Shown piece after piece: positions 17,701 to 36,715 of a stretch of 64,000 nt of DNA (positions within the stretch are counted from its first letter, which is position 1; each line of letters starts with the position of its first letter). The position numbers and the translations under genes were made by a program. Source of the stretch: Microcoleus sp. FACHB-831 (GTDB taxonomy: Bacteria; Cyanobacteriota; Cyanobacteriia; Cyanobacteriales; FACHB-T130); the NCBI RefSeq assembly GCF_014695585.1, contig NZ_JACJON010000060.1, forward strand, positions 62,001-126,000, in the 5' to 3' direction. The notes under the pieces are model-generated. The model saw only the letters and a program-made list of their open reading frames with translations, had not been told where the DNA came from and ran no database searches.

Positions 17701-18876
17701 TCCCGCTGGCCCTGGCGTGCCACTTGTAGTATAAGTTGGGCTAACTACCGAGCCTGGGGGGTTTATGGCGTCTGGCACCGTCACGCCTGTTAGGGTACAA
17801 CCAAATTGGCGGTTTGCGGGATTGTAAACTTGGTCGTTTGTGACGGTGATGTTATAAGTAATGGGGCTGCCCGCAGGCACTGAAGATGGCCCAGTTTTCC
17901 CGACTCCCGCGCCAGCAACGGTTGGTTGCGGTAGGGTAGCAAAGTCACTGATGTTTGTAGCGTTACCGGGAGCAACTTGCGTGCCGACTCCAGTGTTAGG
18001 GTCGATCCTAACAAGGCCATTAGTACTACCAGTAGCATAAAGGTTTCCATCTTGACCAAAGGCTAGCGCACCTAGCTGGAAAGTAGCAGCTAGACCTGTT
18101 GTGCCCCCCACTAAGGTCGAACCAGTAACGTCCCCCGCCGGGTTCAAAGTTACTCTGTAAAGACTGGCCGGGCCTCCATTGGTTACATAAAATGTCTGGC
18201 CGCTGGGGTCAGTAGGGTCAAAAGCCAAATCCCCGCTACCAGCGGCCAATCCGCTAATTGTCCCCCTTGCGGTGGCAACGCCAGTTGTTGTATTAATTGT
18301 GTAGATAGCTGTGGGAGTTCCAGCAACACTACTACCCATAGCGTAGATTAGACCACTGGGACTTAAGCCAAGTCGAAAGAAGCCACCTGCTGGCCCACCA
18401 ACGATCGGCCCGACGATGGTGTTGGTTGCAGTAGCTGGGTTCCAATACGCCAGCCTGTATGTCGTTGATCCAGCAGCAGCATTTTCTACATAATAAATAA
18501 AACCCGTGCTTTGCTCTCTGGCAAGAGTGACAGTGGTAAATGAAAGATTTCCCACCACATTGGTGGCTCGGGTCGAAGTATTCATAACATAGATATTTGT
18601 ATCGGTGCCACCACCGGAGCCATACAGGAGGTTGACGAAGCAGGTGTTGGCGGCATCGGCTCTTTGAGGTAGCGACATAACACTCAACACTGTCAACAGT
18701 GGCACTACTGATATTTGCCAGCGTATTTGCAAGTACGCTAGGTTAATTAGCCAGCGTTTGAATTTTTTGAAGTTACTTATATTTTTCTTTTCAGTACGCT
18801 CTAAACGACGTTGTTTCGATTTACCTAAGTACGAATTATTGAAGTTATACACAGTTGGTAGATGTTTAGGAAACAA
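14716..18876 (-). CDS. Large secreted DUF11-repeat surface protein
   Basis: The protein has up to 1386 residues. A signal peptide with an unusually long N-region (h-region ISVVPLLTVLSVMSLP, cleavage after ADA, about 75) is followed by a beta-propeller-like part (about 77-320; repeats such as LAFGQDGNLYATGS). One divergent DUF11 domain comes next, then six near-identical ~120-residue DUF11 repeats (GNVTYTITTTNNGP; VVIRDQIAAGATFVSASDGG) coded at about 15240-17510. Last is a ~170-residue C-terminal domain with a conserved Cys pair and the ending FGFVRFRVKIN, shared with the proteins at 29444 and 33668. The start is TTG at 18876; an in-frame stop lies close upstream and there is no clear ribosome-binding site. 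It is probably an adhesin or structural envelope protein. Confidence 0.82.
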   Translation of the reverse strand: MFPKHLPTVYNFNNSYLGKSKQRRLERTEKKNISNFKKFKRWLINLAYLQIRWQISVVPLLTVLSVMSLPQRADAANTCFVNLLYGSGGGTDTNIYVMNTSTRATNVVGNLSFTTVTLAREQSTGFIYYVENAAAGSTTYRLAYWNPATATNTIVGPIVGGPAGGFFRLGLSPSGLIYAMGSSVAGTPTAIYTINTTTGVATARGTISGLAAGSGDLAFDPTDPSGQTFYVTNGGPASLYRVTLNPAGDVTGSTLVGGTTGLAATFQLGALAFGQDGNLYATGSTNGLVRIDPNTGVGTQVAPGNATNISDFATLPQPTVAGAGVGKTGPSSVPAGSPITYNITVTNDQVYNPANRQFGCTLTGVTVPDAINPPGSVVSPTYTTSGTPGPAGTYDPATGEWTGLNLAPGQSITLAITGTVSPSASGTITNTANIVLPGGLQNTSPSTTSTVTTTVVPASADLAASKSGLANSPAPGNVTYTITITNKGPGAATNAIIRDQIAAGATFVSASDGGTFANGVVTWPAITINPTDANNPAVTRTVTVSLPANGTYTNTASVTSDTQDPTPNDNQSPFTTQVPGTASAADIVTRKSGPAGLPAAPGNATYTIATTNNGPGDATNVVIRDQIAAGATFVSASDGGTFANGVVTWPAVTVNNGQTATRTITVTLPVNGSYTNTSSNTSDTPDPTPGNNNGTDPAASVTTVVPSTTSADIVTTKSGPTGRPAPGEVSYTIATTNNGPNDATNVVIRDQIASGATFVSASDGGTFANGVVSWPAVNLNNGQTVTRTITVNLPVNGSYTNTSSNTSDTPDPTPGNNNGSLPAAQVTTLVPSGNSADILTSKTGVTSLGTPGNVTYTITTTNNGLDAATNVVIRDAIASGANFVSASDGGTFANGVVSWPAITLNNGQSVTRTITVTLPANGSYTNSASNTSDSFDPNTSNNNGTSANAQVTTIVASGNPADLVTLKSGPTGLASAPSNVTYRIVTINNGPNDATNVVIRDQIAAGSTFVSASDGGTFANGVVTWPAINTIRKGDRVTRTITVSLPVNGSYTNTASNTSDSPDPTPSNNNGSLPTARVTTVVPSATQADVATTKSGSTGNEQAPATVTYTITTVNNGPDTATNVVIRDLIASGATFVSASDGGTFAPGVVTWPAITLNRGDRVTRTVTVTLPTNGTYTNIASNTSDTPDPDPSNNDGTATTAAVITSLPGTSPRLRLVKRITNVTRNGTAISGVNFNSFISADPTNDTATGWPANLLLGVPNISAPLQSGDEIEYTIYFLSDGAAPIDNLKFCDPIPPQTTFIPDSFGSGSGIRLNLAGSARSLTNLPDTDEGAFFSSLVPPSGKFASNVCPSPNNPDGSALVNLETLSNTSGANFGFVRFRVKIN

Positions 18877-19426: not shown

Positions 19427-21595
19427 CTACCTCTCCAGTTGTAAATCTTCTTCTTGCACGATCAACTCGATACCTCTGGCGTCTGAGAAGATAAACTCAA
19501 CCCGCCTGTCTCGCGCATAATCCAATCGAGTATTACCTTCAGTACGACGTAGGGATTCACCGAATGCCCTTATCCTCATTCTCTCAGGTGCAATACCCTG
19601 CCTTCTTAAATAATTTCGCGCCGCGATCGCCCGCCGATTTGATAAATTCAAGTTGTAAGCATTGCTAGCACGCGGATCTGTATGTCCTTGAAGTTCTACA
19701 ACTATAGTCGGCTGTTCTCGCAATACCGTAGCAATCCGATCTAGAACTTGGGCACTTTCTGGACTAATAATGTCTTTGTCTAAGGCAAAGTGGACATTTG
19801 TCGGTACTTGAATGCGGATGGGCGTTGGAGGTATTTCTGGTGGCGTTGGTTCGATTGGTGGTTCTGGTGGAGGTGGCGCACTGGTGCATTTGGGTATCTC
19901 TGGTGGCGTTCGGTTTTCTAGCTGCGGCTGGGTTCCATCGTTAGATAAAATTGCGGCATTTATAGCGGGTTCAGATGTTCCGTATTTTGGGTTAGAAGCG
20001 ATCGCGCTTACTCTTTCCCCCGCCTGCAACTTATCAACCGTTGCGCTAAATTTCCCCTTTTCATCTGCCTCAACTGTCGTCAAAACTTCTCTCAAATCGC
20101 CATACGCAGATCGATTAGGTATTAAAGATCCAGCATTGGCATTTAAAGAATTTTCTGCTCCCAACCCTCTGCCCGCGATCGCTTGTTGTACCCGATAAAT
20201 TTCTATGCGGGAACCCGGATCGGCTTTACCAATGACAGTAGTTTTATTGCCCAAAACAAAAAACTCTTTACTGATAAATTCCGGCGCATTAATAGATGCG
20301 TTTCCAGTATCTTTTCTGCGGTTGCGGGAATTCCGTTCAGGATTGGGGCCATCTCCTCGTTGAAAGTCAGTAACATCTGTACCGCTTTGCGTTACTAAGT
20401 CTATACTCAGCCCATCAATATTATTAAAACGGTTGCCGGAAATTATGTTGCGATCGCTCTTTGGATACGAAGCTACTGCTACACCCGCACCCACTTGATG
20501 GCTGATATCATTCTCTACAACCTGGTGTTCGTTTCCCATCAAATACACCGCTGCTCGCTGTAACCGACGACTGTTAAACTTAATTTGGTTACTGCGAATA
20601 GATACTGCCCCATCTGGCTTAAATAAATACACTCCACTGCCATCGTTACCGCATATCAAATTACCGCTAATTTGCGTTTTATCGACCGCACCTTCTAGTC
20701 GAATTGCATCTGGCATCCCCGCTATTCCATTACCTACAATAAGGTTTTCGCTAACTTGCATACTGTTAGCATTAACCCCAGTAATAATAGCGCTACCATC
20801 GTGGTTAGAAATCCGGTTGCGGCGAATATTTGTGCCCAAACTGTTAAATACAGAAACGCCAAAAGCAGAAGTAGTTTGCGGCACGCTCTCATCAGGCAAA
20901 ATGCCCAACCAGTTATTTTCAATTACTACATCTCTGGGCGGTGTTTCTCCCCGCTTATTTAACTCAATTCCCAAGCTTCTAGCAGCAGCTAAATTATTCC
21001 CAAAATAGGAATAATGTATGTAATTTTCTGATGCGGTGCCGATAAAAATATCGGCTGGTGGAGTAGTAGCAGTGGCGCGAAGATTTGATGTGAAACCATA
21101 CAAGGCTAAACCGCGAACGGTGACACCATCTGCCGCTATACTTAGACCGCGAAACACTTCGCGATCGCTTTGGGGTGTTAATTGCACAACTGGAATTGGA
21201 ATCGCAATTTCAGCAGTTGCAGATTTTGTAGCGTCATACCCCTGCTGAGTCGTGCCATCTACTAATACTGGCACGCTGAGGGGTGGCAATGCTTGTGTCA
21301 GCCGGATGGTAGTTTGTTCAGCAGGGAGATTAAACGCAATTTCCGATTTATTTGCTGGGGAGATTTGTGCTTTTTCAGCCGGACTAAGTTGGTCTTGGGA
21401 GATAGTGCCATTAACTAGAGCGATCGCTTCTCTTAAAGTCAGACCATCATCCGCCTTAATTACCCCATCCTGGTTGCTATTCACCACAACTCTCAGAGGT
21501 GTAATTGCACTTTGAGCCAGAGACAGTGCGCTACCACCTGAAGTTATTACTAGAAGCGCTGATGTAGAAATAGAGAAATAGTTAGTAAAGCGCAT
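19427..21595 (-). CDS. Beta-helix repeat protein with C-terminal OmpA peptidoglycan-binding domain
   Basis: The protein has about 722 residues. It begins with a signal peptide (SALLVITSGGSALSLAQS), then GLTLREAIALVNG, the start motif of many right-handed beta-helix exoproteins. Residues about 150-420 form repeated NosD-like strands (VVIENNWLGI, NIRRNRISNHDGSAI, QISGNLICGNDGSGVYL). A Pro-rich hinge (PPPPEPPIEPTPPEIPPTP) leads to an OmpA domain (about 610-715: VELQGHTDPRASNAYNLNLS, RAFGE, RDRRVEF) that binds peptidoglycan. ATG at 21595 is preferred, with an alternative GTG at 21601. It lies 122 bases downstream of the barrel gene and would anchor the surface complex to the wall (inference). Confidence 0.82.
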   Translation of the reverse strand: MRFTNYFSISTSALLVITSGGSALSLAQSAITPLRVVVNSNQDGVIKADDGLTLREAIALVNGTISQDQLSPAEKAQISPANKSEIAFNLPAEQTTIRLTQALPPLSVPVLVDGTTQQGYDATKSATAEIAIPIPVVQLTPQSDREVFRGLSIAADGVTVRGLALYGFTSNLRATATTPPADIFIGTASENYIHYSYFGNNLAAARSLGIELNKRGETPPRDVVIENNWLGILPDESVPQTTSAFGVSVFNSLGTNIRRNRISNHDGSAIITGVNANSMQVSENLIVGNGIAGMPDAIRLEGAVDKTQISGNLICGNDGSGVYLFKPDGAVSIRSNQIKFNSRRLQRAAVYLMGNEHQVVENDISHQVGAGVAVASYPKSDRNIISGNRFNNIDGLSIDLVTQSGTDVTDFQRGDGPNPERNSRNRRKDTGNASINAPEFISKEFFVLGNKTTVIGKADPGSRIEIYRVQQAIAGRGLGAENSLNANAGSLIPNRSAYGDLREVLTTVEADEKGKFSATVDKLQAGERVSAIASNPKYGTSEPAINAAILSNDGTQPQLENRTPPEIPKCTSAPPPPEPPIEPTPPEIPPTPIRIQVPTNVHFALDKDIISPESAQVLDRIATVLREQPTIVVELQGHTDPRASNAYNLNLSNRRAIAARNYLRRQGIAPERMRIRAFGESLRRTEGNTRLDYARDRRVEFIFSDARGIELIVQEEDLQLER

Positions 21596-21723
21596 ATTCA
21601 CTCATGAATGGATGAAATGATGAATAATGAATGGTAAATGATGAATTATGAATAACTGAAATATTATTTCAAGCAATATTCAGCATTCATAATTCATCGC
21701 TTCCTTCCTTCAAACTTCATAAT

Positions 21724-24700
21724 TCATATTTTCTCCATCCTTTTTATTACAGACGGAAGAAGGGGGCTAGAGAAATGAGGAAAAATGCTATATTTTTCAC
21801 TCTTAACTTCAGAAATTGGCAGTTGCGATTTTAGATTCTTGATTGGGAATTTTGGCTTATTAGATTCTTCTTCGCGGCTACCTGCGTCAGAAGATTCTAA
21901 CTGCTTACTACTATTTCCCGCTCCTTCATCAGTTGGCTTAATTTCAGAATTAGCAGGCGGTGTAGTAGGAGGATTAGCCTCCGGCTTGACTTCAGAATTA
22001 GCAGGCGGTGTAGTAGGAGAACTAGCCTCCGGCTTGACTTCAGGATTAGCAGGCGGTGTAGTAGGAGAACTAGCCTCCGGCTTGACTTCAGGATTAGCAG
22101 GCGACGTAGTTGAAGAATTAGCCACTGGCTTCACTATTGATTCTTGTTGCTGCGGTGGCGCTACCTTTTGGCGCCCAAACCCGCCTAACAGTTCGTTAAG
22201 CTTCAAAGTCAGGCCAAAATAAACGCCCCCATTAGACCGATAGCCCGTGAAGTCGCGGTCGTCCACGCTGCCAAAACTATATCCCAGCGAAGCCCGCAAA
22301 TCTGGCGTCAAATAATAACCCGCCTCAACCGCCAACCCAGTTTCCTTAAAACCAGTCGAAGGCTGTCCTATCCACCGCACTTCCCCAGCAATATCCGTCC
22401 TGTATCCCAGCTTATAAGCCGCCCGCGCTTGCGCCAGATACACCATGCTGTCTTGGCTAAAGTCACTCGCATAATACGTCGTGCTATAGCGCATCGCGTA
22501 CTTGCCATAAAATTCCCAGCGCCAATCTGGGGCATAAATCGCCTCTGCGGCTACTAAGTGATCGTTGTAACCCGTGCCGCTACCCAGAAGCAAAGTTTCG
22601 GGAATAGTCGATGGGTTGCGTCGATATTCATATCTCAACAAGGCGTTAAACTGATCCGCGCTTGGGTCGCGGTAAGCCAGCCCCAGTTTCAGATTCACCG
22701 TGTCCCCCAATCCCCGCAGCAGTTGGTTGGAAGCATTCGCCTGCTGGTAGCGCACTAAGGCAGTCAGTGCGGGCGAAACTTTGCCAGCAGCCCCCGCAGA
22801 AATTACGGTATTGCTGCCGTCCTCGCCAGTCCGATGCTCCCAGCGCGCGCTTGCTTGAAAATCTGGATTGTCGGTATATTCAAAACCGACGCTGTAGGCA
22901 TCGCCGCCAGCAAGTCCCAGGGAAGCGGCGCTTTGGCCTGTGGCGTAGGGTTGGGCAAATTGCTGTCCGGCGGCGGTGCGGACAAACAAGTTATTGAAAA
23001 TGTGTTCGTAGCCGAGGTGAACTCGGAAACCAGGAGCAAGGACAATGCGATGATTTAGCCCGACTGCTCCTTGTCCAGTCACGCTACCAAAGGCGCTGAT
23101 AATCGAGTAGCGACTTGTAATGGAAGTGTTTTCGCCCAACTGTCGATCTACGAGGGTGTCGAGGCTGGTGATGGAGTTGTTCTTAAAGAGTCCTCCATCA
23201 AAGAATTGATGAGCGAGGCGGAAAGTAACTCCTTGCATCGCCGCCCAATCTAGGCCAAGAGTGGTGCGGTTGGGATATAAAGGGTCGCTCCGACCGTCCA
23301 AATTCAATTCATTCTGAGCGCGGAAGGTAATGGTTTGAGTCAGGGGTAAGTTTAGACGGCTTACCAGTTGGCTGGCATTGCCATCAAAAGTGTCGCTGAT
23401 TCTGTCGTCGCGATCGCGGTTCACATACTCCAAGCTCAAATCCGCCGCACCAAATTTCTGCACTAACCCCGCGCGTATCGTCGTCAGCGAATTATCCACT
23501 CTCTCGCCCGGTCTGGCTCGCGGTTGCGGGTTAAAAATATCAAAAAAATCAGTCCTGATTGCGGACGCCCTACCAAAATTAATTTCGTGGTCGTAACTCG
23601 CCGTCAAATTTGTGGTTTTGGTAATTTGCGCCGCTACATTAGCGCCGTATCTTGTCTGTCCTGGTGTAAAACTCGTTGTCGCGTTGTTAGAGAAATTCTC
23701 CTCAACAGAACGATAGTAACCCCGACCCAGCAAGAAAGGAGCGATCGCTCCATACGCCTCTACCCTATATGCGTTCCCCGTCACGTTTCCCAAAAACGGA
23801 TCGTCGTTTGTCGAGCGGGCATATTCGCCGACTATTTGCCCGTTTTTACCCAGGGGGAATAGAAAATCCGCTCCCAGTAGCTCAAAGTTCCGGCTGTCTA
23901 GGTTCTCCCGCATATAACTAGCGCCAACCCAACTTTGCCGATTAAATTCTTGGGAAAAATTGTATTGCAGCCGCCCGCCATACAGATCTGTATTCTCACC
24001 CGCGCCCTCGTGCTGGTAAGTAACTACAATCCGCCGCACTTCAGTAGTACCAAACGGGTTAAGCTCTGTCGCCAAAAGCGGACGGCGGAACAACAGCGTA
24101 CCGCGCTCGTAATCAATCTCGTAGTCTGGCCCTCTATATAGAGGTCTGCGGGAAAGGACGGTTCCGGGGCGATTAATTTCTTCTGTCTCTAGAAAAACAT
24201 TCTCGCTTCCTTCCACCAGCAGGCGACGCGACAGGAAATAATAGCCACTCGTACCCGTAGGCACGATCGTATCTCGCTGGAACCCCTGAACGTCCGGGCT
24301 GTACATCGCCGTAAGTTGCAGATTGCCCAAGCTGAAATTGCCCTTAAACCCGTGCAACTGCCTCGTCGTCGCGCTAAATAACTGGGATGCGCGGGCAAAT
24401 TCTGTCGTGTTGTAGTCGCCCCACATCACATAATCGGGTTCGGCGCCAGAAGTAGGCGAAGTGCGCTCTAAACGCACATATACCGAATCTTTAGAGGGAG
24501 TAAGATAATCGACAGTTGAACTATCGCCATATACCGGATAGTTTTGTTCGCAAAATTGCGGCCCCCGGAACAGGCGAGTAATGCCGTCGCAAGTTTCGTT
24601 GAGGTTGCGGGCGCTATTATAAGCACCAGTCAACAACCATTCCCCCACTTTGCCCGTAGCGAAGACAGCAGCGCTGGCATCAAATGCGGTGCCTTTGTCT

Positions 24701-26265
24701 AGGTCGGGTTTAATGAATTCGTTGCGCCTACCCCAGAAATTAGTGCCCCTCGGCCCAATTCGCAAGTCTATTACGCCGCTTACTAGCGATGGTCGTAGGT
24801 TGGTAATAAACTCAACTTGAGTATAGTTTTCTACGACTGTCTCGGTTTCTAAGGGCAGTACTTCCGTACCTTGAGCAGTTTGAGCGGGTATTTCTGGGCT
24901 GGGAATTTTTGGTGTTGAGGCTTGAGCCTGCAACTTTTTGCCATCTACAGCAGCGCGGATTTTTACTTTCCCCGCTTCCAGACTCGATTGCAACTGAGCG
25001 GTAAATTGTCCAGATTTTGCTACTACTTGGAATCCCGGCTCGTCTTTGTCCTCATCTGCACCAACAAATTTACCCGCACTGGAAGTTAAGGTTACTCTCG
25101 CATCTTCGCGGATTAGTTCGCCTTTTTCGTCGGTAATCCTACCTTCTAGGGCAAGAAATGAGCGACCATCGGCGGGGATGCGGGCATTACCTGATGGGAC
25201 AATTTCTATCTTCCTCCCCGTTTCTTTAACGTTGAGTGTGAGGCTGATGGGGGCGGCGTTATCAGCCTGGACGGTTATGGTGTTTTCGCCTTTTTCTAGG
25301 GGAATGTTGTACCAGACTTGGTTAACTATATTTTGCGCTTCGTTTCGGTCGATTTGTGTCTGGATTTTGGAGTCTATTGGTTTTTTGTTAACGCTTACTT
25401 GAACCTGAGTTGCTGCGCTGTACTGGATGCTTAGGTTGGTGGAACGGTTGCGGATAACGCCGCTTTGGGGGGTGAGGATGCGGACTGGGACTTCTAGTGA
25501 TTGGGGGTTGGGAGTTGGCGAATCGTTGGTTGTTGGTTGTTGGTTGTCGGTTGTTGGTTGTTGGTTGTCTGCTGTTAAGCTACCAGGATTAACTGACTGC
25601 TGGCGATCGCTATTTGTTTTTAGAGAGGGGAAATTTCGCGTCTCTACCGCGTATCCTGCAACAGTTTTTTGATTTTGGATAAAAGAGCGGAAATTATCTG
25701 AAGTATGAATTCTTTGATCTTGTCCGCGATCGCGTAGAGATGTTATCTGCAACGTCTCTAGGCTGGGAATATCCGCAGTTTTAGCAAAATTGATAGATGC
25801 GGAATCTTGTGTTTCTAGAGAATAATCGGCGATCGCGCTTGGATTGTTTGGCGTCGCGTCAGCCGACATCGACACCTCTTCTACATCTGATGGTGCAACA
25901 AAAGATTTTTCACTTCTTTCCGACCGTACAGACCTTATTGGCGAACTCTTTACAGCCGAATTCTTTTCAACAGACAAAACGGTATCAGCGCTAACGTGCT
26001 GAAGCAGTAAAGCGCTGAGGCGCTTCGCTTCGTTGATGCGATCGCTTGAATTCCCTAGTGGTAATTCAGACAGTTCGTTGGCTTTGGCCGTCTGAGGAAG
26101 AAACAGGTAAAAACTAACTAGAAAAAACCAAGAAATTTTTCTATTATCACCCCGCGCCGTCGTCTGCTGTAGATTGCTTTTAGCGTTTGACTTATCTACA
26201 GCGATCGACAAAATAAGACTTTTGCAGAGACGCTTGAGGTCTTCTGATCTTGACAGATACCGCAT
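21724..26265 (-). CDS. Large outer-membrane beta-barrel protein with Ig-like N-terminal part
   Basis: The protein has 1513 residues. A long N-region precedes a signal anchor (ISWFFLVSFYLFLPQTAKA, about 44-62). Residues about 65-260 are low complexity and include DNQQPTTDNQQPTTND, coded by a heptamer tandem repeat. Ig-like segments follow (about 265-450; VRILTPQSGVIRNRSTNLSI). From about 490 to 1390 amphipathic strands with aromatic ends and FDGG/YDHEINFG turns predict an outer-membrane barrel. A C-terminal tail carries four 16-residue Pro/Glu/Lys repeats (SSPTTPPANPEVKPEA). The ATG lies one base after the stop of the upstream gene (TAATATG), so translation is probably coupled. It is a candidate export or assembly pore for the neighbouring DUF11 proteins; the family is not recognised. 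Confidence 0.75.
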   Translation of the reverse strand: MRYLSRSEDLKRLCKSLILSIAVDKSNAKSNLQQTTARGDNRKISWFFLVSFYLFLPQTAKANELSELPLGNSSDRINEAKRLSALLLQHVSADTVLSVEKNSAVKSSPIRSVRSERSEKSFVAPSDVEEVSMSADATPNNPSAIADYSLETQDSASINFAKTADIPSLETLQITSLRDRGQDQRIHTSDNFRSFIQNQKTVAGYAVETRNFPSLKTNSDRQQSVNPGSLTADNQQPTTDNQQPTTNDSPTPNPQSLEVPVRILTPQSGVIRNRSTNLSIQYSAATQVQVSVNKKPIDSKIQTQIDRNEAQNIVNQVWYNIPLEKGENTITVQADNAAPISLTLNVKETGRKIEIVPSGNARIPADGRSFLALEGRITDEKGELIREDARVTLTSSAGKFVGADEDKDEPGFQVVAKSGQFTAQLQSSLEAGKVKIRAAVDGKKLQAQASTPKIPSPEIPAQTAQGTEVLPLETETVVENYTQVEFITNLRPSLVSGVIDLRIGPRGTNFWGRRNEFIKPDLDKGTAFDASAAVFATGKVGEWLLTGAYNSARNLNETCDGITRLFRGPQFCEQNYPVYGDSSTVDYLTPSKDSVYVRLERTSPTSGAEPDYVMWGDYNTTEFARASQLFSATTRQLHGFKGNFSLGNLQLTAMYSPDVQGFQRDTIVPTGTSGYYFLSRRLLVEGSENVFLETEEINRPGTVLSRRPLYRGPDYEIDYERGTLLFRRPLLATELNPFGTTEVRRIVVTYQHEGAGENTDLYGGRLQYNFSQEFNRQSWVGASYMRENLDSRNFELLGADFLFPLGKNGQIVGEYARSTNDDPFLGNVTGNAYRVEAYGAIAPFLLGRGYYRSVEENFSNNATTSFTPGQTRYGANVAAQITKTTNLTASYDHEINFGRASAIRTDFFDIFNPQPRARPGERVDNSLTTIRAGLVQKFGAADLSLEYVNRDRDDRISDTFDGNASQLVSRLNLPLTQTITFRAQNELNLDGRSDPLYPNRTTLGLDWAAMQGVTFRLAHQFFDGGLFKNNSITSLDTLVDRQLGENTSITSRYSIISAFGSVTGQGAVGLNHRIVLAPGFRVHLGYEHIFNNLFVRTAAGQQFAQPYATGQSAASLGLAGGDAYSVGFEYTDNPDFQASARWEHRTGEDGSNTVISAGAAGKVSPALTALVRYQQANASNQLLRGLGDTVNLKLGLAYRDPSADQFNALLRYEYRRNPSTIPETLLLGSGTGYNDHLVAAEAIYAPDWRWEFYGKYAMRYSTTYYASDFSQDSMVYLAQARAAYKLGYRTDIAGEVRWIGQPSTGFKETGLAVEAGYYLTPDLRASLGYSFGSVDDRDFTGYRSNGGVYFGLTLKLNELLGGFGRQKVAPPQQQESIVKPVANSSTTSPANPEVKPEASSPTTPPANPEVKPEASSPTTPPANSEVKPEANPPTTPPANSEIKPTDEGAGNSSKQLESSDAGSREEESNKPKFPIKNLKSQLPISEVKSEKYSIFPHFSSPLLPSVIKRMEKI
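21936..22125. repeat. 48-bp tandem repeat inside the barrel gene, four units
   Basis: Four in-frame 16-codon units encode variants of SSPTTPPANPEVKPEA near the C terminus of the barrel protein. The bases are nearly identical between units, so copy-number variation is likely. Confidence 0.7.
25525..25566. repeat. In-frame heptanucleotide tandem repeat, six units of GTTGGTT
   Basis: Six 7-base units (one with T to C) lie within the barrel gene. Three units equal seven codons, so the product shows NQQPTTD/N twice. This is a short tandem repeat of the type usually found between genes. Confidence 0.75.
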
Positions 26266-26266: not shown

Positions 26267-27181
26267 TTAACGCCGCCCTTCTCGATACACTGGTGTCACC
26301 GCAAAATTCATTCTGGCTAATCCTCCGGGTTCCAGACGAACTAGGCGTGACTGACTGTTGCGTTCAATGAAGCGTTGATTGGGAGCCAATGTATATCCCG
26401 GAAGCGATGTCAGATCTAACGTTCCGCTACGATTGCCAGAGATAACATTGGCTAAGGAAAACAGCCCATTTGCATCTGTTGTGATGCGATTGCCATCATC
26501 CATAAAAATTACAGCATTGGGAACTCCAGGCTCACCTGACTGTTGTTCGCCATCAAAGTTTTTATCAACAAATACACGCCCAATTAAAGTGCCGCAATCT
26601 GACAGAATTCCCGGTTGAATTCGCAGTTGGTGGCTGGCGATGTTGCTTCGAGTTTCCTGTGCCTGATTTCTGCCGTTACCCCTAATAGCGTCGGGAGTTA
26701 CAGTTGCGGCATAGATTATATTTAGTGTCTGGTTGGGAGCGAGACTGGGATAGTTAAATGTAACTGTCCGACCCGATGTGGTGGGGGGTGCCAATGTCAC
26801 CCCGGTCGCCCCCCTATCCGTTGTTAGGGAACCTTGCAAAGCCTTGGATACATATTGCAGTCCGACGGGCAAGGTATCGGTGATGACGATATTGTTGGCT
26901 GTGGCTGTACCGTTATTTTTTAGCGAGAGGCGGTAAATTACCGTCTCCCCAGGCTCCGCGGCAGCGCGATCGCCTGTTTTAATTAATACCAGAACGGCTT
27001 GCCCTGCCGTCACTTTTGTTTGATTTGATGTAACTGGCTTGTCGAGATTGCTACCCGATGCTGATGCTGAATTTAATATTTCATCTGCTGTAACAGGCAA
27101 CCCCTCAAAAACCACATAACCTGGAATAACCACTGTCAAAAATAGGCACAAGTGCCCTAACCGTTCTAGCAGCGTTTTCAT
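26267..27181 (-). CDS. DUF11 plus SdrD-B-like secreted protein
   Basis: The protein has 304 residues. A signal peptide (LCLFLTVVIPGYVVFEGLPVTA, split between 11 and 32) precedes one DUF11 domain (about 70-180: LIKTGDRAAAEPGETVIYRL, SLKNNGTATANNIVITDTLP). Then comes an SdrD-B/carboxypeptidase-regulatory-like domain (about 200-285: LIGRVFVDKNFDGEQQSGEP, TTDANGLFSLANV), whose Asp-rich loop looks calcium-binding. It is the first gene of the surface operon and its stop is one base from the barrel ATG. In other bacteria such domains often precede a barrel within one polypeptide, so the two products probably act together (inference). Function is unknown. Confidence 0.78.
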   Translation of the reverse strand: MKTLLERLGHLCLFLTVVIPGYVVFEGLPVTADEILNSASASGSNLDKPVTSNQTKVTAGQAVLVLIKTGDRAAAEPGETVIYRLSLKNNGTATANNIVITDTLPVGLQYVSKALQGSLTTDRGATGVTLAPPTTSGRTVTFNYPSLAPNQTLNIIYAATVTPDAIRGNGRNQAQETRSNIASHQLRIQPGILSDCGTLIGRVFVDKNFDGEQQSGEPGVPNAVIFMDDGNRITTDANGLFSLANVISGNRSGTLDLTSLPGYTLAPNQRFIERNSQSRLVRLEPGGLARMNFAVTPVYREGRR

Positions 27182-29443: not shown

Positions 29444-32400
29444 ATGTTCAAGGTCTGCCGAAAATTTCCCATCGCGATCGCCGCCGCAACGAGAAGGCGT
29501 AAAAACTCGATTTATCGCCTCTCTAAGCAGATTGGCTGCCTTGCCTTATTAATCTCTACCGTTGTTGGCTACAAAAATGAAGCGGCTCTTGCTGAAGGCA
29601 GCCGCGAACTAACTTCCAGCGGCGGCAATCGCCCCTATTTAAACTATCGAAACGACTTATCTTCAGGCATACTGCGTCGAACAGTTATCAGGGTATACGT
29701 CCAACCAGGCGAGACGATAGATCTTGGCTCAAGTGCTGTAGGTCTAGGTCAAGGTGTCATCACCTATCGCGACCCAAACGGGACAAGCGGCAGTTGCCTT
29801 ACCACTGGCAAAATTAACACCCGCGCCCAAGAGGTAGCTGGCCCTCTTCCTAACATCGGAGGCTACACTCCTTGCAGTGTTAAAGTCGGGCCTAGTCAAG
29901 GCGGAATTTGGGAAATAAACTTTGTCAGTCCTAATCCTGACAATGCTACTAACCCGCCTCCTGCACTTGCCAATGCCGAATTGATCCAACCAGATAACGT
30001 TGGTTTTGTCACTGCTTGGGATGTAACCGTAAAAAATAGTTCTGGTACTCCTATTCCTGGGAGAGCCTATGCCAACTATTTTGCTCTAAATCTGGGAAGC
30101 AATGGTTTAGCTCTTAGTTCGCTAGTTTACATCCTGACTAGAGATGGTTATCTCTATCAGATAGACTTCAACCGTCTCGACCCCTTTGGGTTTATCTTTT
30201 TTGCCAACAACAAAGGATTCAAAGACACAAGCGGCAATCCGATTTACCGTTCGATTCAACTGGTGGGCGATAACCCTGGCGTTTTTCCTCCCGGCATCAC
30301 CGTACAAGATCCGGGTGCTTTAGACACGCCAACCGATGTCACTCACAAGCTTTTCTTTAACCTGCCTAGCGGCGATCTACCGCTGGTTGACGTACCCATA
30401 GCAGGACGCGGTACAACCTGGTTGCGGAAACCACCAACCCCGCCACCGACTGTTTCTAATTTCACATTTGCAGGCCTTGAAGGTACGCTCAATCAAACCG
30501 GGACTGCACCACCCTTGGGGGGAAATTTTACTTTTCAAGCCAGTGGCACTGGTGGTTATAGGATCGATATTGATATTAACCAAGATGGCGTTTTTGGTAA
30601 TGCCAACGACCGGGTATTTTTCGGCCCAACAGTAGGAGCAGGCGCAGTCAATACTGTATTTTGGGATGGGTTGGATGCAAATGGCAACCCCGTACCTCCT
30701 GGTACGGTGGCTTATGGAGCGAAGATTACTTTAACTGGTACTGGGGAAGTTCATTTTCCGTTTTTAGATCCTGAAAACGATAACCCCAATGGCCTGGTAA
30801 TCCAGCAATTTACTTCAACAGGACAGCCGCTGCCTTCGATTGTTTACTATAACGACACTGGTTTAACGGGTGGAACGCCACCCAACCCGGTTAACGCATT
30901 ATTTGGGTTGGATGGTAAGAGCGGAGTTCATGCGTTCACCAATGGTTTTGGCGATCGCAAGGGTATTGACACTTGGAGCTATGTACCCTCGCCAGAAAGC
31001 TCGATCGTCGGCGGTATCGTAGTAGCGCGGGCTGACCTCCAGATCCAAAAAACTCACGCTCCCGAACCAGTTGTTGCTGGCGGTATTATCACTTACACCA
31101 TTACCGTTACCAACAACGGCCCCTCTAATGCAGTAGGAGCAACAGTACAAGATACCGTTCCGCCTCAAATTACTGGTGTAACTTGGACTTGCGCGATTAC
31201 TGGTACTGGTAGTTGCGGACAAACCAGCGGTCAAGGGAATGCTATCAACACAACAGTTAATTTAAACGCTGGGTCTGTTGCTACTTTTACAGTCAGAGGT
31301 ACTATTTCTCCATCTCTTTCATCTGGTTCGTTACCTAATACAGCAACGGTTAGCAGAAGTAAGGATGCGAACGACGACAACCCTAACAACAACACCGCAA
31401 CCGATAACACTACTGTTCAACCCAACCCAGTCTCTCCCATTGGGATCAAATCAGTTCGTCTCGCGACGGATGCAGATGGTAGCGGGACGGTAACGACTGG
31501 GGACACTGTTGAATTTAGCATCAACTACGTCAATAACACCTCTACCCCCGTCATCGAGTTCCGGGCTACGGATAATATCGATCCTACTAAGTTGAGTTTC
31601 GTCGCTGGTAGTTATAGCCTTACTGCCGCAGGTTCGGGGACAGTTGTCACCCCTAACCCTAACTACAATGGCACAACAGACCCGAATTTTAACAACGACC
31701 CGCAGGGTGGAACGTTGGGTGCAGGCGGTGGAAATGTTGTCATTAAATACCGTGCCATTGTAACTGCACAAGCTGGGATTAGTATTAGCAACCAAGCGGT
31801 TGCTACTTCAAGGGGTGGAACATCAAATCTTGCCTCTACTGTTGTTACGGATGCGTTCCAAAGTACTGAAGATTTGCCACAAGTCACAGATGACAATATC
31901 GAGCAAGGGAATGCCCCTACTATTACTGGGGATGATGAGCCAACTGTAGTTACTGTAGCTGTACCTGGTAATCCGAGTCTGCGTTTGGTGAAGCGAATTA
32001 CATCTATAACTAGGGGTGGTGTAGCGCTAAGCGGTATTAATTTTGGCGGTTTTGTGGATGACCCTACTGATGAGAACGACACTGCTGGGGGCTTTTCGCA
32101 ATTGTTGCCAGCAGGAATTGTAACTTTGGGGTCAGAGACGCCTTTGCAAAGCGGCGATGAAGTGGAGTATACGGTTTATTTTCTGTCGGATGGGACTGCG
32201 ATCGCTAATGATGTCCGCTTCTGCGATTTGATTCCAGCTAGTACAACTTTTGTTAATCAAAGTTTTGGAGCAAATAGCGGCATTTCACTTAATCGAGCTA
32301 GCGCGGCTAGCTTGCTAACTAATGCTGCCGATACGGATGGGGCGACATTTTTCTCGCCTCTAACTCCACTACCCAATGGTAATGCTTGCTCTACCCAAAA

Positions 32401-32497
32401 CAATGCTAATGGTGCTGTGTTTGTCAATCTGGGTAATGTTTCTAATATGGCTGGCAGTAACTACGGTTTTATACGCTTTCGCGTCAAAGTTAACTAA
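29444..32497 (+). CDS. Secreted DUF11-repeat protein, paralogue 1
   Basis: The protein has 1017 residues. The signal peptide has its h-region at IGCLALLISTVVG and cleavage after AALA (about 51). Residues about 52-540 are a unique domain (EGSRELTSSGGNRPYLNYRN; GEVHFPFLDPEN; DTWSYVPSPES) shared only with the next gene. Two DUF11 domains follow (about 540-660, ITYTITVTNNGPSNAVGATV; about 670-800, GDTVEFSINYVNNTSTPV). Last is the ~170-residue C-terminal domain (SLRLVKRITS...FCDLIP...GFIRFRVKVN) shared with the 1386-residue protein. It is probably an exported, surface-displayed protein. It and the downstream paralogue, 1.17 kb away, arose by tandem duplication that included the upstream leader. 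Confidence 0.82.
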   Translation: MFKVCRKFPIAIAAATRRRKNSIYRLSKQIGCLALLISTVVGYKNEAALAEGSRELTSSGGNRPYLNYRNDLSSGILRRTVIRVYVQPGETIDLGSSAVGLGQGVITYRDPNGTSGSCLTTGKINTRAQEVAGPLPNIGGYTPCSVKVGPSQGGIWEINFVSPNPDNATNPPPALANAELIQPDNVGFVTAWDVTVKNSSGTPIPGRAYANYFALNLGSNGLALSSLVYILTRDGYLYQIDFNRLDPFGFIFFANNKGFKDTSGNPIYRSIQLVGDNPGVFPPGITVQDPGALDTPTDVTHKLFFNLPSGDLPLVDVPIAGRGTTWLRKPPTPPPTVSNFTFAGLEGTLNQTGTAPPLGGNFTFQASGTGGYRIDIDINQDGVFGNANDRVFFGPTVGAGAVNTVFWDGLDANGNPVPPGTVAYGAKITLTGTGEVHFPFLDPENDNPNGLVIQQFTSTGQPLPSIVYYNDTGLTGGTPPNPVNALFGLDGKSGVHAFTNGFGDRKGIDTWSYVPSPESSIVGGIVVARADLQIQKTHAPEPVVAGGIITYTITVTNNGPSNAVGATVQDTVPPQITGVTWTCAITGTGSCGQTSGQGNAINTTVNLNAGSVATFTVRGTISPSLSSGSLPNTATVSRSKDANDDNPNNNTATDNTTVQPNPVSPIGIKSVRLATDADGSGTVTTGDTVEFSINYVNNTSTPVIEFRATDNIDPTKLSFVAGSYSLTAAGSGTVVTPNPNYNGTTDPNFNNDPQGGTLGAGGGNVVIKYRAIVTAQAGISISNQAVATSRGGTSNLASTVVTDAFQSTEDLPQVTDDNIEQGNAPTITGDDEPTVVTVAVPGNPSLRLVKRITSITRGGVALSGINFGGFVDDPTDENDTAGGFSQLLPAGIVTLGSETPLQSGDEVEYTVYFLSDGTAIANDVRFCDLIPASTTFVNQSFGANSGISLNRASAASLLTNAADTDGATFFSPLTPLPNGNACSTQNNANGAVFVNLGNVSNMAGSNYGFIRFRVKVN

Positions 32498-32850
32498 AAA
32501 AGGGAATGGGAAGTGGGGGTTTAAATTCCTTAATAACCCGGAGGGTAACTCTGCTTCCCCTTGTTGCCAATGCTTTACCCCCATGCCGATAGAGGGGTAA
32601 TCAATTAAGTTTGGTACAACAATCGGGAATTAATTAGGCCATTCCCGGCGTAAGTGCTTTTGGCAGAGCATGGAGGAGATTATCAGTTTTTCTTTGTTCC
32701 GCCTGCGATCGCGTTGTAGCTTTTAAACCCGTAAGGTTTCATATATTTATCATTCTTGAGTTATTAGACACTTGATTTTTTTTGTGGTAATAAAATATAA
32801 ACTGAAAAACTTGATATTTTTACGGATTGCGTAGAAAATTAACTTAATTC

Positions 32851-33005
32851 TTGTACAGTTTATTTAGTAGGTGGCGCACGACCGCCTGCATGAGTTTCAG
32901 GGGAAAAGCATCTATTAAAACCTGCTGTGGGTTGTAATGTATCTTAGGTTAGATTTCAGCAGAACACGTCCCACTTTTTCCCAGGATGCGTATGAAACTG
33001 AAGTT
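32851..33005 (+). promoter_or_regulatory. Duplicated upstream leader block, copy 2
   Basis: This is the counterpart of 28979-29135, with the same ordered strings. It lies about 660 bases before the start codon because extra sequence containing hairpins separates it from the gene. Confidence 0.55.
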
Positions 33006-33489
33006 GGCACTCAAAATTGCTTCGCGCAATGTCCGCATAGAAGCCGCCAGGATTTGGAGCATCCTACGTTTGTATAAATGGCTTCCTAGAACTCGCACCT
33101 ATAGAAACCCTGGCTTCCCCTTAAGGTGCATTGTTGAATAAACCCGCCTGCGAGGTTTATCTCTGTTTAGGCACAGTTTCTAACTGGGAGCATCTATTTG
33201 TACAAATTGCATTCTCCCCAGATTTAGAATGCCCGTGCCGCAAGAGTTAATCAACATCCTCACAATATTAATATTGTCCCGGAGTCTGAATTTTTAATAA
33301 TTCTCCGGAAGCGGAATATTAGAGGATGTTTATAAAAAAGTAAATTGAAAAGAAACTGGGTTGTTTGAGCTGGGGGCTAAGGAACTAAGTTTTACCAACC
33401 ATCATAAACTCGTTGTCTAGGCCAAAAATAGGACTTTCATCATCGAAAAAACATCAATGATACTGACATTTTTTTGAATTAACCAACAA

Positions 33490-33526
33490 GAATACTCGCA
33501 GGGATACGGGATACCTGCGAGTATTC
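33490..33526. promoter_or_regulatory. 13-bp perfect hairpin upstream of paralogue 2
   Basis: GAATACTCGCAGG (33490-33502) and its exact reverse complement (33514-33526) flank 11 bases, about 140 bases before the start codon. No T-run follows. It is absent from the upstream region of paralogue 1 and could be an operator or a leader RNA structure. Confidence 0.5.
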
Positions 33527-33667
33527 GATAGTTACTCCATCCATCTATGCGATTAAGGATGCGATCGCTGCATAGTTTTTATATGTTGGGATTGGCTTTA
33601 AAATACCCGCATCCATAATCTTGAAATATCTGATGTTTCCACGCCTTAGATAAAAAGGTGTATCTTC

Positions 33668-36600
33668 ATGTTCAAATCTTGCCCCAATTTTGCAAAAACC
33701 AATGCTTTGATGACACGCTGGAGTTGGCGGATTGGCTACCTTGCCTTATTAATCTCTACTCTTGGCTGCAATTCAAAAGCGGCTCTTGCTGAAGGCAGTC
33801 GGGAACTGACTGCGAGCGGCGGCTATCGCCCTTATTTAGGGTATCGAAACGACTTATATGCGAAGATACCGCGTAAAACCATTATCAAGGTATACGCCAA
33901 GCCAGGAGAGACGATCAATCTTGGCTCCAGTGCCGTTGGTGTAGGTAAGAATGGCAAGGTCGGCATCATCAACTATCGCCGCCCAGATGGAACAAACGGC
34001 ACTTGCGAGAGAGCTGGCAAAATTAACAACCGTACCGAAGAAGTTAATGGCACGTTCAGCCCTTGCGTTGTCCCAGTAAGTGCTGGGCAAGAAGGAGTTT
34101 GGGAAATAAACTTTGTCAGCCCAGATCCTGACAGTACTAAAGACCCAACTCCAGTACTCGCCAATGCCAACTGGACTCAACCGGACGATCTTGGTTTTGT
34201 CACAGCTTGGGATGTCACGGTTAAAAATAGTTCTAATAGAGCTATTCCTGGGAGAGCTTACACAAACTATTTTTTCTTTAATTTGGGAGACAATGGCCTA
34301 CAGATTAGTTCCGAACCTTTCATTCAAACTAGAGATGGTTATCTCTACCAAATAGACTTCAACAACCTAGACCCCTTCGGGTTTCTCTTTTTTGCCAACA
34401 ACAAAGGATTCAAAGACGCAAGCGGGAACCCGCTTTATCGCTCCGTTCAACTCATTGGCGATAACCCTGGCGACGTGCCTGCTGGCGTTACCATACAAGA
34501 TCCCAGTTCTCCCGACACGCCAACGGATGTCACGCACAAGATTTTCTTTAACCGCCCTAACAATGACTTGCCAATGTTTGATGTACCCATAGCAGGGGGT
34601 ACAACTTGGCTCCGCAGACCGCCAACCCCCCCGCCGACAGTTACTAATTTTCAATTTACGGGCATTGAGGGTACGCCAAACCAAACTGGGACTGCACCGC
34701 CATTGGGGGGCAATTTTACTTTTAATGCCAGTGCCAGTTCAGGTTATAGAATTGCCCTTGATATTAATCGAGATGGCATTTATGGTAATGCCAACGACCG
34801 AATATTATTCGGTTCAGCCCAGTCTGGGGCAGGCGGAAATACAGTGTTTTGGGATGGTTTGGATGGGGATGGAAAGCCCACACCTGCTGGCACGCTTAGT
34901 TATGGGGCGACAGTAACTTTAACTGGTACTGGAGAAGTTCATTTTCCGTTTTACGATCCTGAAAACAATAATCCCAACGGTCTAATTATTCAGCAATTAG
35001 ATCCAAACACAGGACAGCCGCTTCCTTCGATTGTTTACTACAACGACACTGGGTTAACGGGTGGAACTCAACCTAATCCGCTAAATGCGCTATATGGATT
35101 GGATGGTAGTAAGGGAGTTCATGCGTTCACCAATGGTTTTGGCGATCGCAGGGGTATTGACACTTGGATCTATGTACCTTCGCTAGAATCCGCGATCGCT
35201 GGTGGCATTCTGGTAGCAAATGCCGATCTCAAGATCGAAAAAAATACGGCTACAGAGCAAGTTGTTGCAGGCAATGAAATCGTCTATACCCTTACCGTTA
35301 CCAACAACGGCCCCTCTAAGGCGATGGGAGCAACCGTACAAGACAACATACCTCCTGAAATTACCGGAGTGACTTGGACTTGCGCGATTACATCTGGTAC
35401 TGGTAGTTGCGCTCAAAGCAGCGGAGAAGGCAATGCGCTCAACACAACAGTAGATTTAGACTACAAAGATCAAACAGTTCCTCCCTCAGTTGCCACCATT
35501 ACGATAAAAGGTACTATTTCTCCCACTTTCCCAGGGGGGCAATTGAAAAACACGGCAACAGTTACCCGAGGTAAGGATGCTAACGACCCAGACCTTACAA
35601 ACAACACCGCAACTCGTGAGGTGACGGTTAATGCTAAACCAGCCTTAGTCACGCCCACTGGCTTCAAATCAGCCCGTCTAGCAGAGGACGCAGACAACAA
35701 CGGGAAGGTAACGACTGGGGACACTGTTGAATACACCATCACCTACACCAATAACGCCTCTACCCCCGTCAACAAGTTCCTAGCTACCGACAGCATCAAC
35801 ACGAGTCAATTAAATTTCGTCCCTGGGAGTTATAGCTTTACTGCTTCTGGTATCGGGACAACAGTGACGGGGAACCCTACCTACAACGGCACAACAGACA
35901 AGAACCTTACCAACCCCACGTCGTTGGGATCGTTGGGTGCAGGCGGGGGGAATGTCGTCATCAAGTTCCGCGCTGTCGTGACGGCGCAAGGTGGGACGCA
36001 GATTAGCAACCAAGCGAGTGCAACATCGGAAGGGGGAACATTAGATGTCTCTGTTACCGATGCTGTTGCAAATAAGGACGATATGCCTCAAGTCGGAGAT
36101 GACAAAACCGACGGGGGGAACGACCCGAATAATACTGGGGATGACGATCCTACTGTAATGCCTGTGGGGGAGGCCCCTCCTCCTGGTATTCCTAGCCTGC
36201 GTTTGGTGAAGCGAATTACATCAGTAACTAGGGGTGGCGTGCCGATTAGTGGGGTTAATTTTGGTAGCTTTGTGGATGTTGTAGGTGACGATAACGATAC
36301 TGCCCCTGGTTGGTCGCAATTTTCGCCAGTAGGGATTGCAGATCTGGCGCCAGAGATAGCTTTGCGAAGCGATGATCAAGTGGAGTATACGATTTATTTC
36401 CTATCGGATGGGACTGCGATCGCTAATGATGTCCGGTTCTGCGATTTGATTCCCGAAAAGACAACTTTTATCTCTAACAGTTTTGGAGAAAATAGCGGAA
36501 TTTTAGTGAATCGCGCCGGGGTAGCACGCAACCTGAGTAATACTGGGGATAACGATGAAGCAACATTTTTCGCGCCCCTGGCTCCGTTACCTAATGGTAA

Positions 36601-36715
36601 TTCTTGTTCTAAGCAAAACAATGGTAACGGTGCTGCGATCGTGAATTTGGGTAATGTTTCTAATGTTGCTGGCAGCAACTATGGTTTTATCCGCTTTCGG
36701 GTGAAGATCGACTGA
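33668..36715 (+). CDS. Secreted DUF11-repeat protein, paralogue 2
   Basis: The protein has 1015 residues and is co-linear with the product of 29444-32497. The signal peptide has IGYLALLISTLGCNSKAALA; the Cys is in a poor lipobox (Thr at -3), so signal peptidase I cleavage after AALA fits better. The unique N-terminal domain, two DUF11 domains (VYTLTVTNNGPSKAMGATV; GDTVEYTITYTNNASTP) and the shared C-terminal domain (SLRLVKRITS...FCDLIP...GFIRFRVKID) are all intact, so both copies appear functional. AAGGTG lies 10 bases before the ATG. A palindrome follows seven bases after the stop codon. Confidence 0.82.
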   Translation: MFKSCPNFAKTNALMTRWSWRIGYLALLISTLGCNSKAALAEGSRELTASGGYRPYLGYRNDLYAKIPRKTIIKVYAKPGETINLGSSAVGVGKNGKVGIINYRRPDGTNGTCERAGKINNRTEEVNGTFSPCVVPVSAGQEGVWEINFVSPDPDSTKDPTPVLANANWTQPDDLGFVTAWDVTVKNSSNRAIPGRAYTNYFFFNLGDNGLQISSEPFIQTRDGYLYQIDFNNLDPFGFLFFANNKGFKDASGNPLYRSVQLIGDNPGDVPAGVTIQDPSSPDTPTDVTHKIFFNRPNNDLPMFDVPIAGGTTWLRRPPTPPPTVTNFQFTGIEGTPNQTGTAPPLGGNFTFNASASSGYRIALDINRDGIYGNANDRILFGSAQSGAGGNTVFWDGLDGDGKPTPAGTLSYGATVTLTGTGEVHFPFYDPENNNPNGLIIQQLDPNTGQPLPSIVYYNDTGLTGGTQPNPLNALYGLDGSKGVHAFTNGFGDRRGIDTWIYVPSLESAIAGGILVANADLKIEKNTATEQVVAGNEIVYTLTVTNNGPSKAMGATVQDNIPPEITGVTWTCAITSGTGSCAQSSGEGNALNTTVDLDYKDQTVPPSVATITIKGTISPTFPGGQLKNTATVTRGKDANDPDLTNNTATREVTVNAKPALVTPTGFKSARLAEDADNNGKVTTGDTVEYTITYTNNASTPVNKFLATDSINTSQLNFVPGSYSFTASGIGTTVTGNPTYNGTTDKNLTNPTSLGSLGAGGGNVVIKFRAVVTAQGGTQISNQASATSEGGTLDVSVTDAVANKDDMPQVGDDKTDGGNDPNNTGDDDPTVMPVGEAPPPGIPSLRLVKRITSVTRGGVPISGVNFGSFVDVVGDDNDTAPGWSQFSPVGIADLAPEIALRSDDQVEYTIYFLSDGTAIANDVRFCDLIPEKTTFISNSFGENSGILVNRAGVARNLSNTGDNDEATFFAPLAPLPNGNSCSKQNNGNGAAIVNLGNVSNVAGSNYGFIRFRVKID

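Follow-up and report, generated by a model that had tools for sequence, protein, structure and literature searches.

A conserved C-terminal domain of large cyanobacterial proteins and its co-occurrence with a predicted outer-membrane barrel

Three proteins with a common end and their neighborhood

The window analyzed here, a stretch of 64,000 nucleotides from Microcoleus sp. FACHB-831 (contig NZ_JACJON010000060.1, positions 62,001 to 126,000), encodes three large proteins, A, B and C, which share a C-terminal domain (CTD) of 172 residues that is referred to as the tail in the following (Table 1). In each carrier the tail extends from LRLVKRIT through the final residue. Pairwise identities of the three tails were 54%, 53%, and 70% (95/177, 93/176, and 121/172 aligned columns, respectively), and the pair alignment scores of 446–637 compare with a maximum of 23 for shuffled sequences. 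The initial annotation of this DNA, which had described three proteins ending in one common domain, was correct in this respect. Its statement that the N-terminal parts differ holds for A, which has two short matches to B and one to C upstream of the tail, but not for B and C, which are 65% identical along the whole length of this region. Judged by these alignments, B and C are full-length paralogues, and A alone differs ahead of the tail. All sequence motifs listed in the annotation were found, with the deviation that protein C has SDDQVEYT where SGDE(I/V)EYT had been quoted. A single-sequence query revealed no fourth tail copy in the window genome at E ≤ 10, and profile A4 retrieved three copies at E ≤ 1e-10. 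With the broader profile A2, a fourth match was counted at E ≤ 1e-5; it was not listed individually and probably represents an ordinary DUF11 repeat.

On the minus strand, the genes are ordered as follows: a DUF11-SdrD_B protein, a protein predicted to form a very large outer-membrane beta-barrel (hereafter the barrel), a protein with a beta-helix and an OmpA domain, and, after 550 bases, tail protein A. Scans for promoters and terminators gave matches at or under the shuffled expectation.

Table 1 Tail proteins, tail domains, and barrel gene set in the window (ORF, open reading frame; aa, amino acids; Ig, immunoglobulin).
Feature	Position	Strand	Description
Protein A, tail-bearing	14716..18876	-	1386 aa; N-terminal hydrophobic segment, DUF11 repeats (7 Pfam stretches), tail; from ORF and Pfam
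Tail (CTD) of protein A	14719..15234	-	172 aa, runs to last residue
Beta-helix (right-handed) and OmpA-domain protein	19427..21601	-	724 aa; Pfam OmpA 4.8e-18, Beta_helix 2.6e-11; conserved in gene set
Predicted giant outer-membrane beta-barrel	21724..26265	-	1513 aa; N-terminal Ig-like (Invasin_D3/Big_1-like) domains; about 40 predicted strands; from AlphaFold
DUF11 and SdrD_B protein ("SDR")	26267..27181	-	304 aa; ends 1 base before barrel ORF; conserved upstream of barrel
Protein B, tail-bearing	29444..32497	+	1017 aa; Pfam DUF11
Tail (CTD) of protein B	31979..32494	+	172 aa, runs to last residue
Protein C, tail-bearing	33668..36715	+	1015 aa; full-length paralogue of B
Tail (CTD) of protein C	36197..36712	+	Presumed disulfide Cys82-Cys137; last strand GFIRFRVKID

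The tail family and its carriers

A profile search of cyanobacteria, which had been proposed together with the initial annotation, established the tail as a true family that is present in 155 of the 388 genomes surveyed from the class, among them the window genome (74-row profile, E ≤ 1e-10). An early contig search with a single domain as query had yielded 64 pattern matches with no relative among them. The position of the tail within proteins was determined with the 74-domain profile at an independent E-value (iE) ≤ 1e-10 for the ORFs of the window and of three groups of loci, which had been picked for the domain (L034–L093), for the barrel (L111–L190), or mostly as exceptions (L214–L233). 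Plain DUF11 repeats weakly cross-match this profile, and matches with iE > 1e-10, mostly ordinary DUF11 repeats, were left out of the position and locus counts. In the resulting set of 164 non-redundant domains, the distance from tail end to protein end was 0 residues in 144, 1 in 13, 2–4 in 6, and 266 in one case. Hence, 163 of 164 tails sit 0–4 residues from the C-terminus, in proteins that range from 149 to 2033 amino acids in length, the shortest being partial ORFs. Occurrences in the middle of proteins were looked for specifically, and the sole internal match was partial (model positions 52–173). It lies in locus L226 (9736–12219, minus strand), 266 residues before the end of a protein that also carries a terminal tail copy.

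The last ten residues follow the pattern GF(V/I)RFR(V/A)(R/K)(V/I)(N/D), with counts among 163 terminal copies of G 141, F 119, V/I 128, R 139, F 140, R 127, V/A 132, R/K 109, V/I 143, and N/D 105. Among the positions checked, Lys5, Arg6, Thr8, Tyr64, Cys82, Asp83, Pro86, Gly145, and Phe167 were invariant in 80 of 80 aligned tails. The second cysteine, which the initial annotation had pointed out as a possible disulfide partner, is a regular feature of the family: two cysteines were present in 158 and four in 5 of the 163 non-redundant terminal copies, and none contained an odd number. Cysteines were also denser in the tail (1.19 per 100 residues) than in the remainder of the proteins (0.47). 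Since an even count is what a disulfide predicts, we presume that the tail is closed by such a bond. The aligned column of the second cysteine was occupied by Cys in 78 of 80 tails, and in the other two the residue has presumably shifted.

Sequence and structure comparisons connect the tail with DUF11 domains. The NCBIfam model TIGR01451 (DUF11 repeat) matched 80 of the 80 tails in alignment A4 at E ≤ 1 and the window copy with 29.1 bits, over the cut-off of 24. Pfam PF01345 (DUF11) matched 64 of the 80 tails at E ≤ 1, and its score for the window copy was under the cut-off (17.6 versus 24.6). A profile–profile comparison between the tail and the DUF11 repeats of tail proteins gave a probability of 93% over 39 columns, and in a sequence search of the PDB with the tail profile 9ifr_A was the only match at E ≤ 0.1 (E = 0.014). 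Entry 9IFR is the DUF11 structure reported in PMC12617251 (PMC, PubMed Central), an excerpt of which characterizes DUF11 as an isopeptide stalk domain and gives the isopeptide triad of 9IFR as Lys-Asp-Asn. Structure prediction with AlphaFold2, using 80 sequences, resulted in a confident and almost all-beta model of the tail (mean predicted local distance difference test score, pLDDT, 92.6), a beta-sandwich whose last strand was assigned to residues 162–171 by DSSP. In structure comparisons (VIA), the matches were largely pilin and adhesin domains with Z-scores of 7.6 and below, the best being the CppA pilin (Z = 7.6); in such a comparison of a predicted model, this level may reflect only a common arrangement. 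Based on the TIGR01451, profile–profile, and 9ifr_A matches together with the AlphaFold2 model, we conclude that the tail is a derived DUF11 (CLIPPER) beta-sandwich.

The comparison of the parts ahead of the tail covered 152 tail proteins in which this region exceeds about 150 residues. Among ordered pairs, 92% were alike over at least 60% of the stretch in the tail versus 10% in the preceding part, and any match at E < 1e-5 was found for 99% versus 15%. On this comparison, the parts ahead of the tail are mostly unrelated. Ten tail proteins chosen for variety were scanned with Pfam, which placed DUF11 repeats (L162, L216), SdrD_B (L064, L065), or GEVED (L180) ahead of the tail; no family was found there in L042, L047, L088, and L090, the sole match in the last lying inside the tail. 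The protein of L219, from a genome of family f20 without the barrel, carries DUF4347 together with cadherin and CshA repeats. All f20 loci (L217–L221) hold divergent tails, which stand behind PT-rich linkers in L217, L218, and L220, and two lipoprotein-like genes are located upstream of the tail gene in each of the three loci that were listed (L217, L219, and L220). In locus L055, one ORF (8897–11479, minus strand) gives matches to the OmpA/beta-helix protein as well as to the tail and may be an OmpA-tail fusion. An N-terminal hydrophobic segment was indicated by a crude test in 145 of 158 tail proteins versus 47 of 151 internal stretches of the same proteins. With 11-mers at thresholds from 1.4 to 2.0, 152, 145, 119, and 96 of 158 were positive versus 72, 47, 20, and 6 of 151, and with 13-mers at a threshold of 1.8 the numbers were 99 of 158 versus 4 of 152. 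Several of the negatives were partial or mis-started ORFs.

The barrel gene set and its co-occurrence with the tail

The barrel had no Pfam or NCBIfam match over cut-off, only sub-cut-off ones, and no sequence match in the PDB at E ≤ 1. An AlphaFold model of residues 259–1376 (pLDDT 75.6, predicted template modeling score, pTM, 0.68) showed, past the N-terminal Ig-like part, 41 predicted strands of at least 8 residues and 37 of at least 10 residues; as modeled, the protein is likely a very large barrel. The highest-scoring VIA matches (Z up to 14.2) are confined to the Ig-like part, GH2 enzymes and intimin being examples. In the barrel part, the VIA matches included FadL (Z = 12.6), FimD (Z = 11.7; 345 residues, root mean square deviation, rmsd, 10.9), KdgM and AlgE (both Z = 11.6), SprA (Z = 11.4; 514 residues, rmsd 13.5), and SlpA (Z = 10.7). 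The best Foldseek match was the S-layer barrel SlpA.

A contig search with the barrel alignment gave 455 relatives, and the best 80 of these 455, all from cyanobacterial records, were kept as barrel loci. At least one tail protein was encoded downstream in 68 of the 80, in the order SdrD_B, barrel, OmpA, tail; in some loci no OmpA or SdrD_B gene was detected, and two of the loci (L168 and L169) look like one locus present twice. Ten of the 12 loci without a tail reach the contig end within about 2 kb, and a further one (L188) has about 4 kb left. Tandem tail genes are present at many barrel loci, and in genome G162 a single barrel is followed by four of them in about 25 kb. In f38 and f10 genomes and in Synechococcus NIES-970, the barrel ORF itself contains an OmpA-protein match; barrel ORFs with such an internal OmpA/beta-helix match occur in L222 (3329–8200), L074, L075, L076, and L234 (9665–14296). 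No tail match (iE ≤ 1e-10) was found inside a barrel ORF among the loci scanned. Fusions of OmpA and of SdrD_B (see below) to the barrel suggest, as gene architectures, that all of these may be permanent parts of one machine. The tail occurs in multiple copies on varied cargo and was not seen fused to the barrel, a pattern that would suit a substrate mark.

In the survey of 388 genomes (tail and barrel both at E ≤ 1e-10), the tail was present in 155 and the barrel in 160: 147 genomes had both, 8 only the tail, 13 only the barrel, and 220 neither. The Fisher value for these counts disregards common descent and the linkage of the genes and is not taken as a probability here. The initial annotation had named genomes lacking the barrel as a place where the domain should not abound, and 147 of the 155 tail genomes possess the barrel, which occurs in 13 of the 233 genomes without a tail. 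Eight genomes with a best tail E-value between 1e-10 and 1e-5 had been dropped from the strong set (from 163 to 155), and a three-row tail profile likewise gave 155 of 388 genomes at E ≤ 0.001. In genus g10, two genomes (G205, G336) have both tail and barrel, and two others (G136, G178) have neither. In a draw of 386 genomes from the phylum (profile A4), 44 contained the tail, all being the window's own genome or members of its order or class, the draw's number of genomes from other classes not being shown. Among 72,556 plasmid records, two contained the tail (tblastn, E ≤ 1e-3), from Kovacikia minuta and Synechococcus NIES-970. In both, and in no other plasmid record, a barrel match extends across 99% of the query (54% and 43% identity); these plasmid searches were default tblastn runs, which may miss divergent relatives.

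Tails outnumber barrels in several genomes, and some are located far from any barrel. In the window genome, G171, and G375, three tails were found per barrel, and in G299 four; the barrel counts are inexact, with at most two candidates scored per genome, and counts of two may be low. Two single-contig chromosomes carry one tail gene beside the only barrel found and another one elsewhere: the barrel lies at 4456 kb and the distant tail gene at 877 kb in G135, and at 3610 kb and 214 kb, respectively, in G149.

Of the 13 genomes with a barrel and no tail, six were examined at the barrel locus. The tail protein of G253 is truncated where its contig stops, just within the tail; a large protein of G128 continues past the end of its contig; and the contigs of G365 and G284 stop with the OmpA gene or shortly past it. 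None of the eight tail-only genomes had a barrel match at E ≤ 10; among these, the contig of G315 ends just past the OmpA gene, and G179 and G249 showed no partner in the stretch read.

Relatives of the barrel extend beyond cyanobacteria. By tblastn, the barrel was found in 25 plasmid records, of which two are cyanobacterial and 23 are distant, by genus mainly Pseudomonadota, with mostly partial query cover. Five of the 23 were examined, including a Vibrio record without annotation. On plasmid p4 of Acinetobacter haemolyticus, DUF11 genes are followed by a DUF11/SdrD_B-barrel fusion, an OmpA gene, and a gene for a 978-aa DUF11 protein; this gene set occupies 6840–19205 of locus L235, and the plasmid is typed as mobilizable. 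In Sinorhizobium, Loktanella, and Eleftheria, the gene immediately ahead of the barrel encodes a DUF11 or SdrD_B giant, and the Eleftheria barrel has OmpA fused to it. The barrel profile matches all four barrels; with the SdrD_B-protein profile, these three giants are matched in their C-terminal region, whereas in Acinetobacter the DUF11-SdrD_B match lies inside the barrel. The 978-aa Acinetobacter protein has a DUF11-like C-terminal region in common with an adjoining ORF of 272 aa (29% identity over 278 columns, 2e-25). Among the proteins neighboring the four Pseudomonadota barrels, none gave a match like the cyanobacterial tail. A barrel serving DUF11-type proteins thus appears to be older than the cyanobacterial tail.

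Other parts of the window contain a split set of three ORFs (1107–4252, minus strand) that we take to be glutamate-synthase-like, with FMN-binding, GXGXG, and amidotransferase parts; what is presumably a nitrate/sulfonate-type ABC transporter set of two ATPases, a permease, and a substrate-binding protein (49546–54921, minus strand); and a protein of 1462 aa with many repeats that we assume to be TPR-like and an end resembling a CHAT protease (37392–41780, minus strand).

Function of the tail and comparison with known systems

The initial annotation had read the common end as a sorting or secretion signal. This proposal gains from the terminal position and the tracking with the barrel; the tails that are unlinked to a barrel and the dissimilarity of the preceding parts lend it further support. 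These features are not proof, the tail may be an assembly or docking module, and the barrel-less tails of f20 fit less well. With slightly better than even confidence, we interpret the tail as a dedicated C-terminal docking or sorting domain that is served by the barrel complex, where recognition, direction of movement, and surface location are what we infer. The tail would have arisen from a DUF11 (CLIPPER) beta-sandwich that gained a disulfide and, at the chain end, a strongly patterned last strand (G-F-V/I-R-F-R-V-R-V-N). Tail proteins would cross the inner membrane by means of an N-terminal signal peptide, as the crude hydrophobicity test suggests. The folded tail could then be recognized by the outer-membrane complex encoded next to it, which would consist of the barrel, the DUF11-SdrD_B partner, and the OmpA/beta-helix protein, with the last tying the complex to peptidoglycan. 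The barrel would either export fibrous DUF11-type proteins or keep them at the surface, the tail being the common feature of different cargoes.

Several observations weigh against this interpretation. Gene linkage and shared ancestry alone would yield much of the co-occurrence. A Nostoc barrel locus (L185) has no tail within about 10 kb past the barrel, and in G108 and G272, which belong to one genus, no tail protein adjoins the barrel locus. In one family (f20), five genomes carry a divergent tail that lies in other surroundings, and none of the five has a barrel match at E ≤ 10; this speaks against treating the barrel family as a strict requirement of the tail. The ancestral role of the barrel need not involve the tail either, given that no tail was found near the four distant barrels examined. 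Furthermore, the barrel model is of medium confidence, and its fold matches do not appear to single out translocons, with FadL and small porins scoring like FimD and SprA.

Should the tail be a signal served by the barrel, this would account for the common end of many large cyanobacterial proteins, and the tail could serve as a tag for surface display or secretion. With a defined candidate signal some 172 residues long and a single defined gene for the barrel, the set is a concrete candidate, and the question becomes an experiment with two mutants. As reported in an excerpt of PMC13297417, the signal peptide of a DUF11 protein in Synechococcus PCC 11901 brought only 14.3% of eYFP outside. If that DUF11 protein bears the tail, such a low export would fit the need for a C-terminal part.

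Alternatively, the tail could serve the assembly or capping of a surface fibre or sheath, linking tail proteins to one another or to the OmpA/beta-helix protein once they have been exported by another route; the barrel would then be a neighboring subunit, such as a porin-like component of the sheath, and not a receptor. The likeness of the tail to pilin and adhesin stalk domains, the match of the barrel to SlpA, and the L055 ORF are consistent with this explanation, and DUF11 repeats make stalks and filaments according to excerpts of PMC12617251 and PMC13319060, respectively. The barrel-less f20 tails also fit assembly better than export. However, capping alone does not require the last position in 163 of 164 copies, and it predicts neither tails on otherwise unrelated proteins nor tails that are unlinked to the barrel in barrel genomes; we regard a fibre-assembly role as rather unlikely. 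Ordinary paralogy, in which one family was duplicated within a conserved operon and the tail is merely its best-kept part without signal function, would agree with the relationship of B and C and with the tandem tail genes at many loci. The scarcity of matches before the tail compared with those within it and the wide range of tail protein lengths make this distinctly improbable. Domain swapping onto one constant end would be the simpler account of these sequences, although the preceding part may instead have diverged fast.

In the type IX secretion system (T9SS), a constant C-terminal beta-sandwich on varied cargo is combined with a giant outer-membrane barrel, and chaperone-usher systems handle Ig-like subunits whose terminal strand matters. 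A cyanobacterial version of either system would explain the terminal Ig-like domain, the very large barrel, and the VIA scores of the barrel to SprA and FimD. In the window genome, however, neither SprA (TIGR04189; the control was weak, with a match in one genome and only below cut-off) nor Usher (PF00577; E. coli control positive) had a match at E ≤ 1, and CHU_C (E = 0.16) and PapD_N (E = 0.85) were found below cut-off only. None of these families, nor Por_Secre_tail, was among the Pfam and NCBIfam matches of the 80 tails at E ≤ 1. In addition, the survey published in PMC4793230 found T9SS only in Bacteroidetes. Taken together, it is highly improbable that the gene set represents a cyanobacterial T9SS or chaperone-usher system.

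Searches of the open-licence PMC literature yielded no paper on the tail or the barrel. Anchors of the sortase and exosortase type (LPXTG, PEP-CTERM) consist of a C-terminal motif, a hydrophobic helix, and a basic tail, and were rejected as a model, the present domain ending in a patterned, predicted beta strand. A beta-signal as in autotransporters and other outer-membrane proteins was likewise rejected: the tail is a predicted beta-sandwich whose copies mostly end in N, D, K or E and not in an aromatic residue. Features of C-terminal sorting domains that the tail does share are its strictly terminal location and its occurrence on varied cargo. With DUF11/CLIPPER domains it shares the beta-sandwich family, but it differs by its 172 residues with insertions, an invariant Cys ahead of a conserved Asp (FCD), a second Cys, and its place at the end of the chain. 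By reading, Lys5 and Asp83 of the tail (80/80) correspond to the Lys and Asp of the isopeptide triad, whereas no Asn is evident in the last strand where the triad would require it. The chaperone-usher systems (FimD/PapC) resemble the gene set in having Ig-like subunits that share an operon with a large barrel, but the window genome gave no Usher match and PapD_N only below cut-off. The DUF11/SdrD_B giants of Pseudomonadota, annotated as DUF11, SdrD B-like, OmpA family, or hypothetical proteins, share the neighboring barrel; in contrast, the proteins read there lack the cyanobacterial tail, and Acinetobacter has a terminal region of its own. To T9SS (Por_Secre_tail, CHU_C, and SprA of Bacteroidota), tail and barrel show a works-like resemblance, but no sequence relation was found, the partners are SdrD_B and OmpA/beta-helix proteins, and the tail has a presumed disulfide. 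According to an excerpt of PMC12617251, isopeptide-domain proteins co-occur with T9SS sorting domains. As a tentative proposal, which we hold to be possible rather than probable, the genes described here may encode an undescribed cyanobacterial system for outer-membrane export and anchoring, with a single-chain barrel of about 40 strands, an SdrD_B partner, an OmpA/beta-helix anchor, and, as the mark by which exported proteins are recognized, a C-terminal domain derived from DUF11 and locked by a disulfide. In function, this system would be a counterpart of T9SS that arose from another family, and it would belong to a wider superfamily of barrels serving DUF11 giants in Pseudomonadota.

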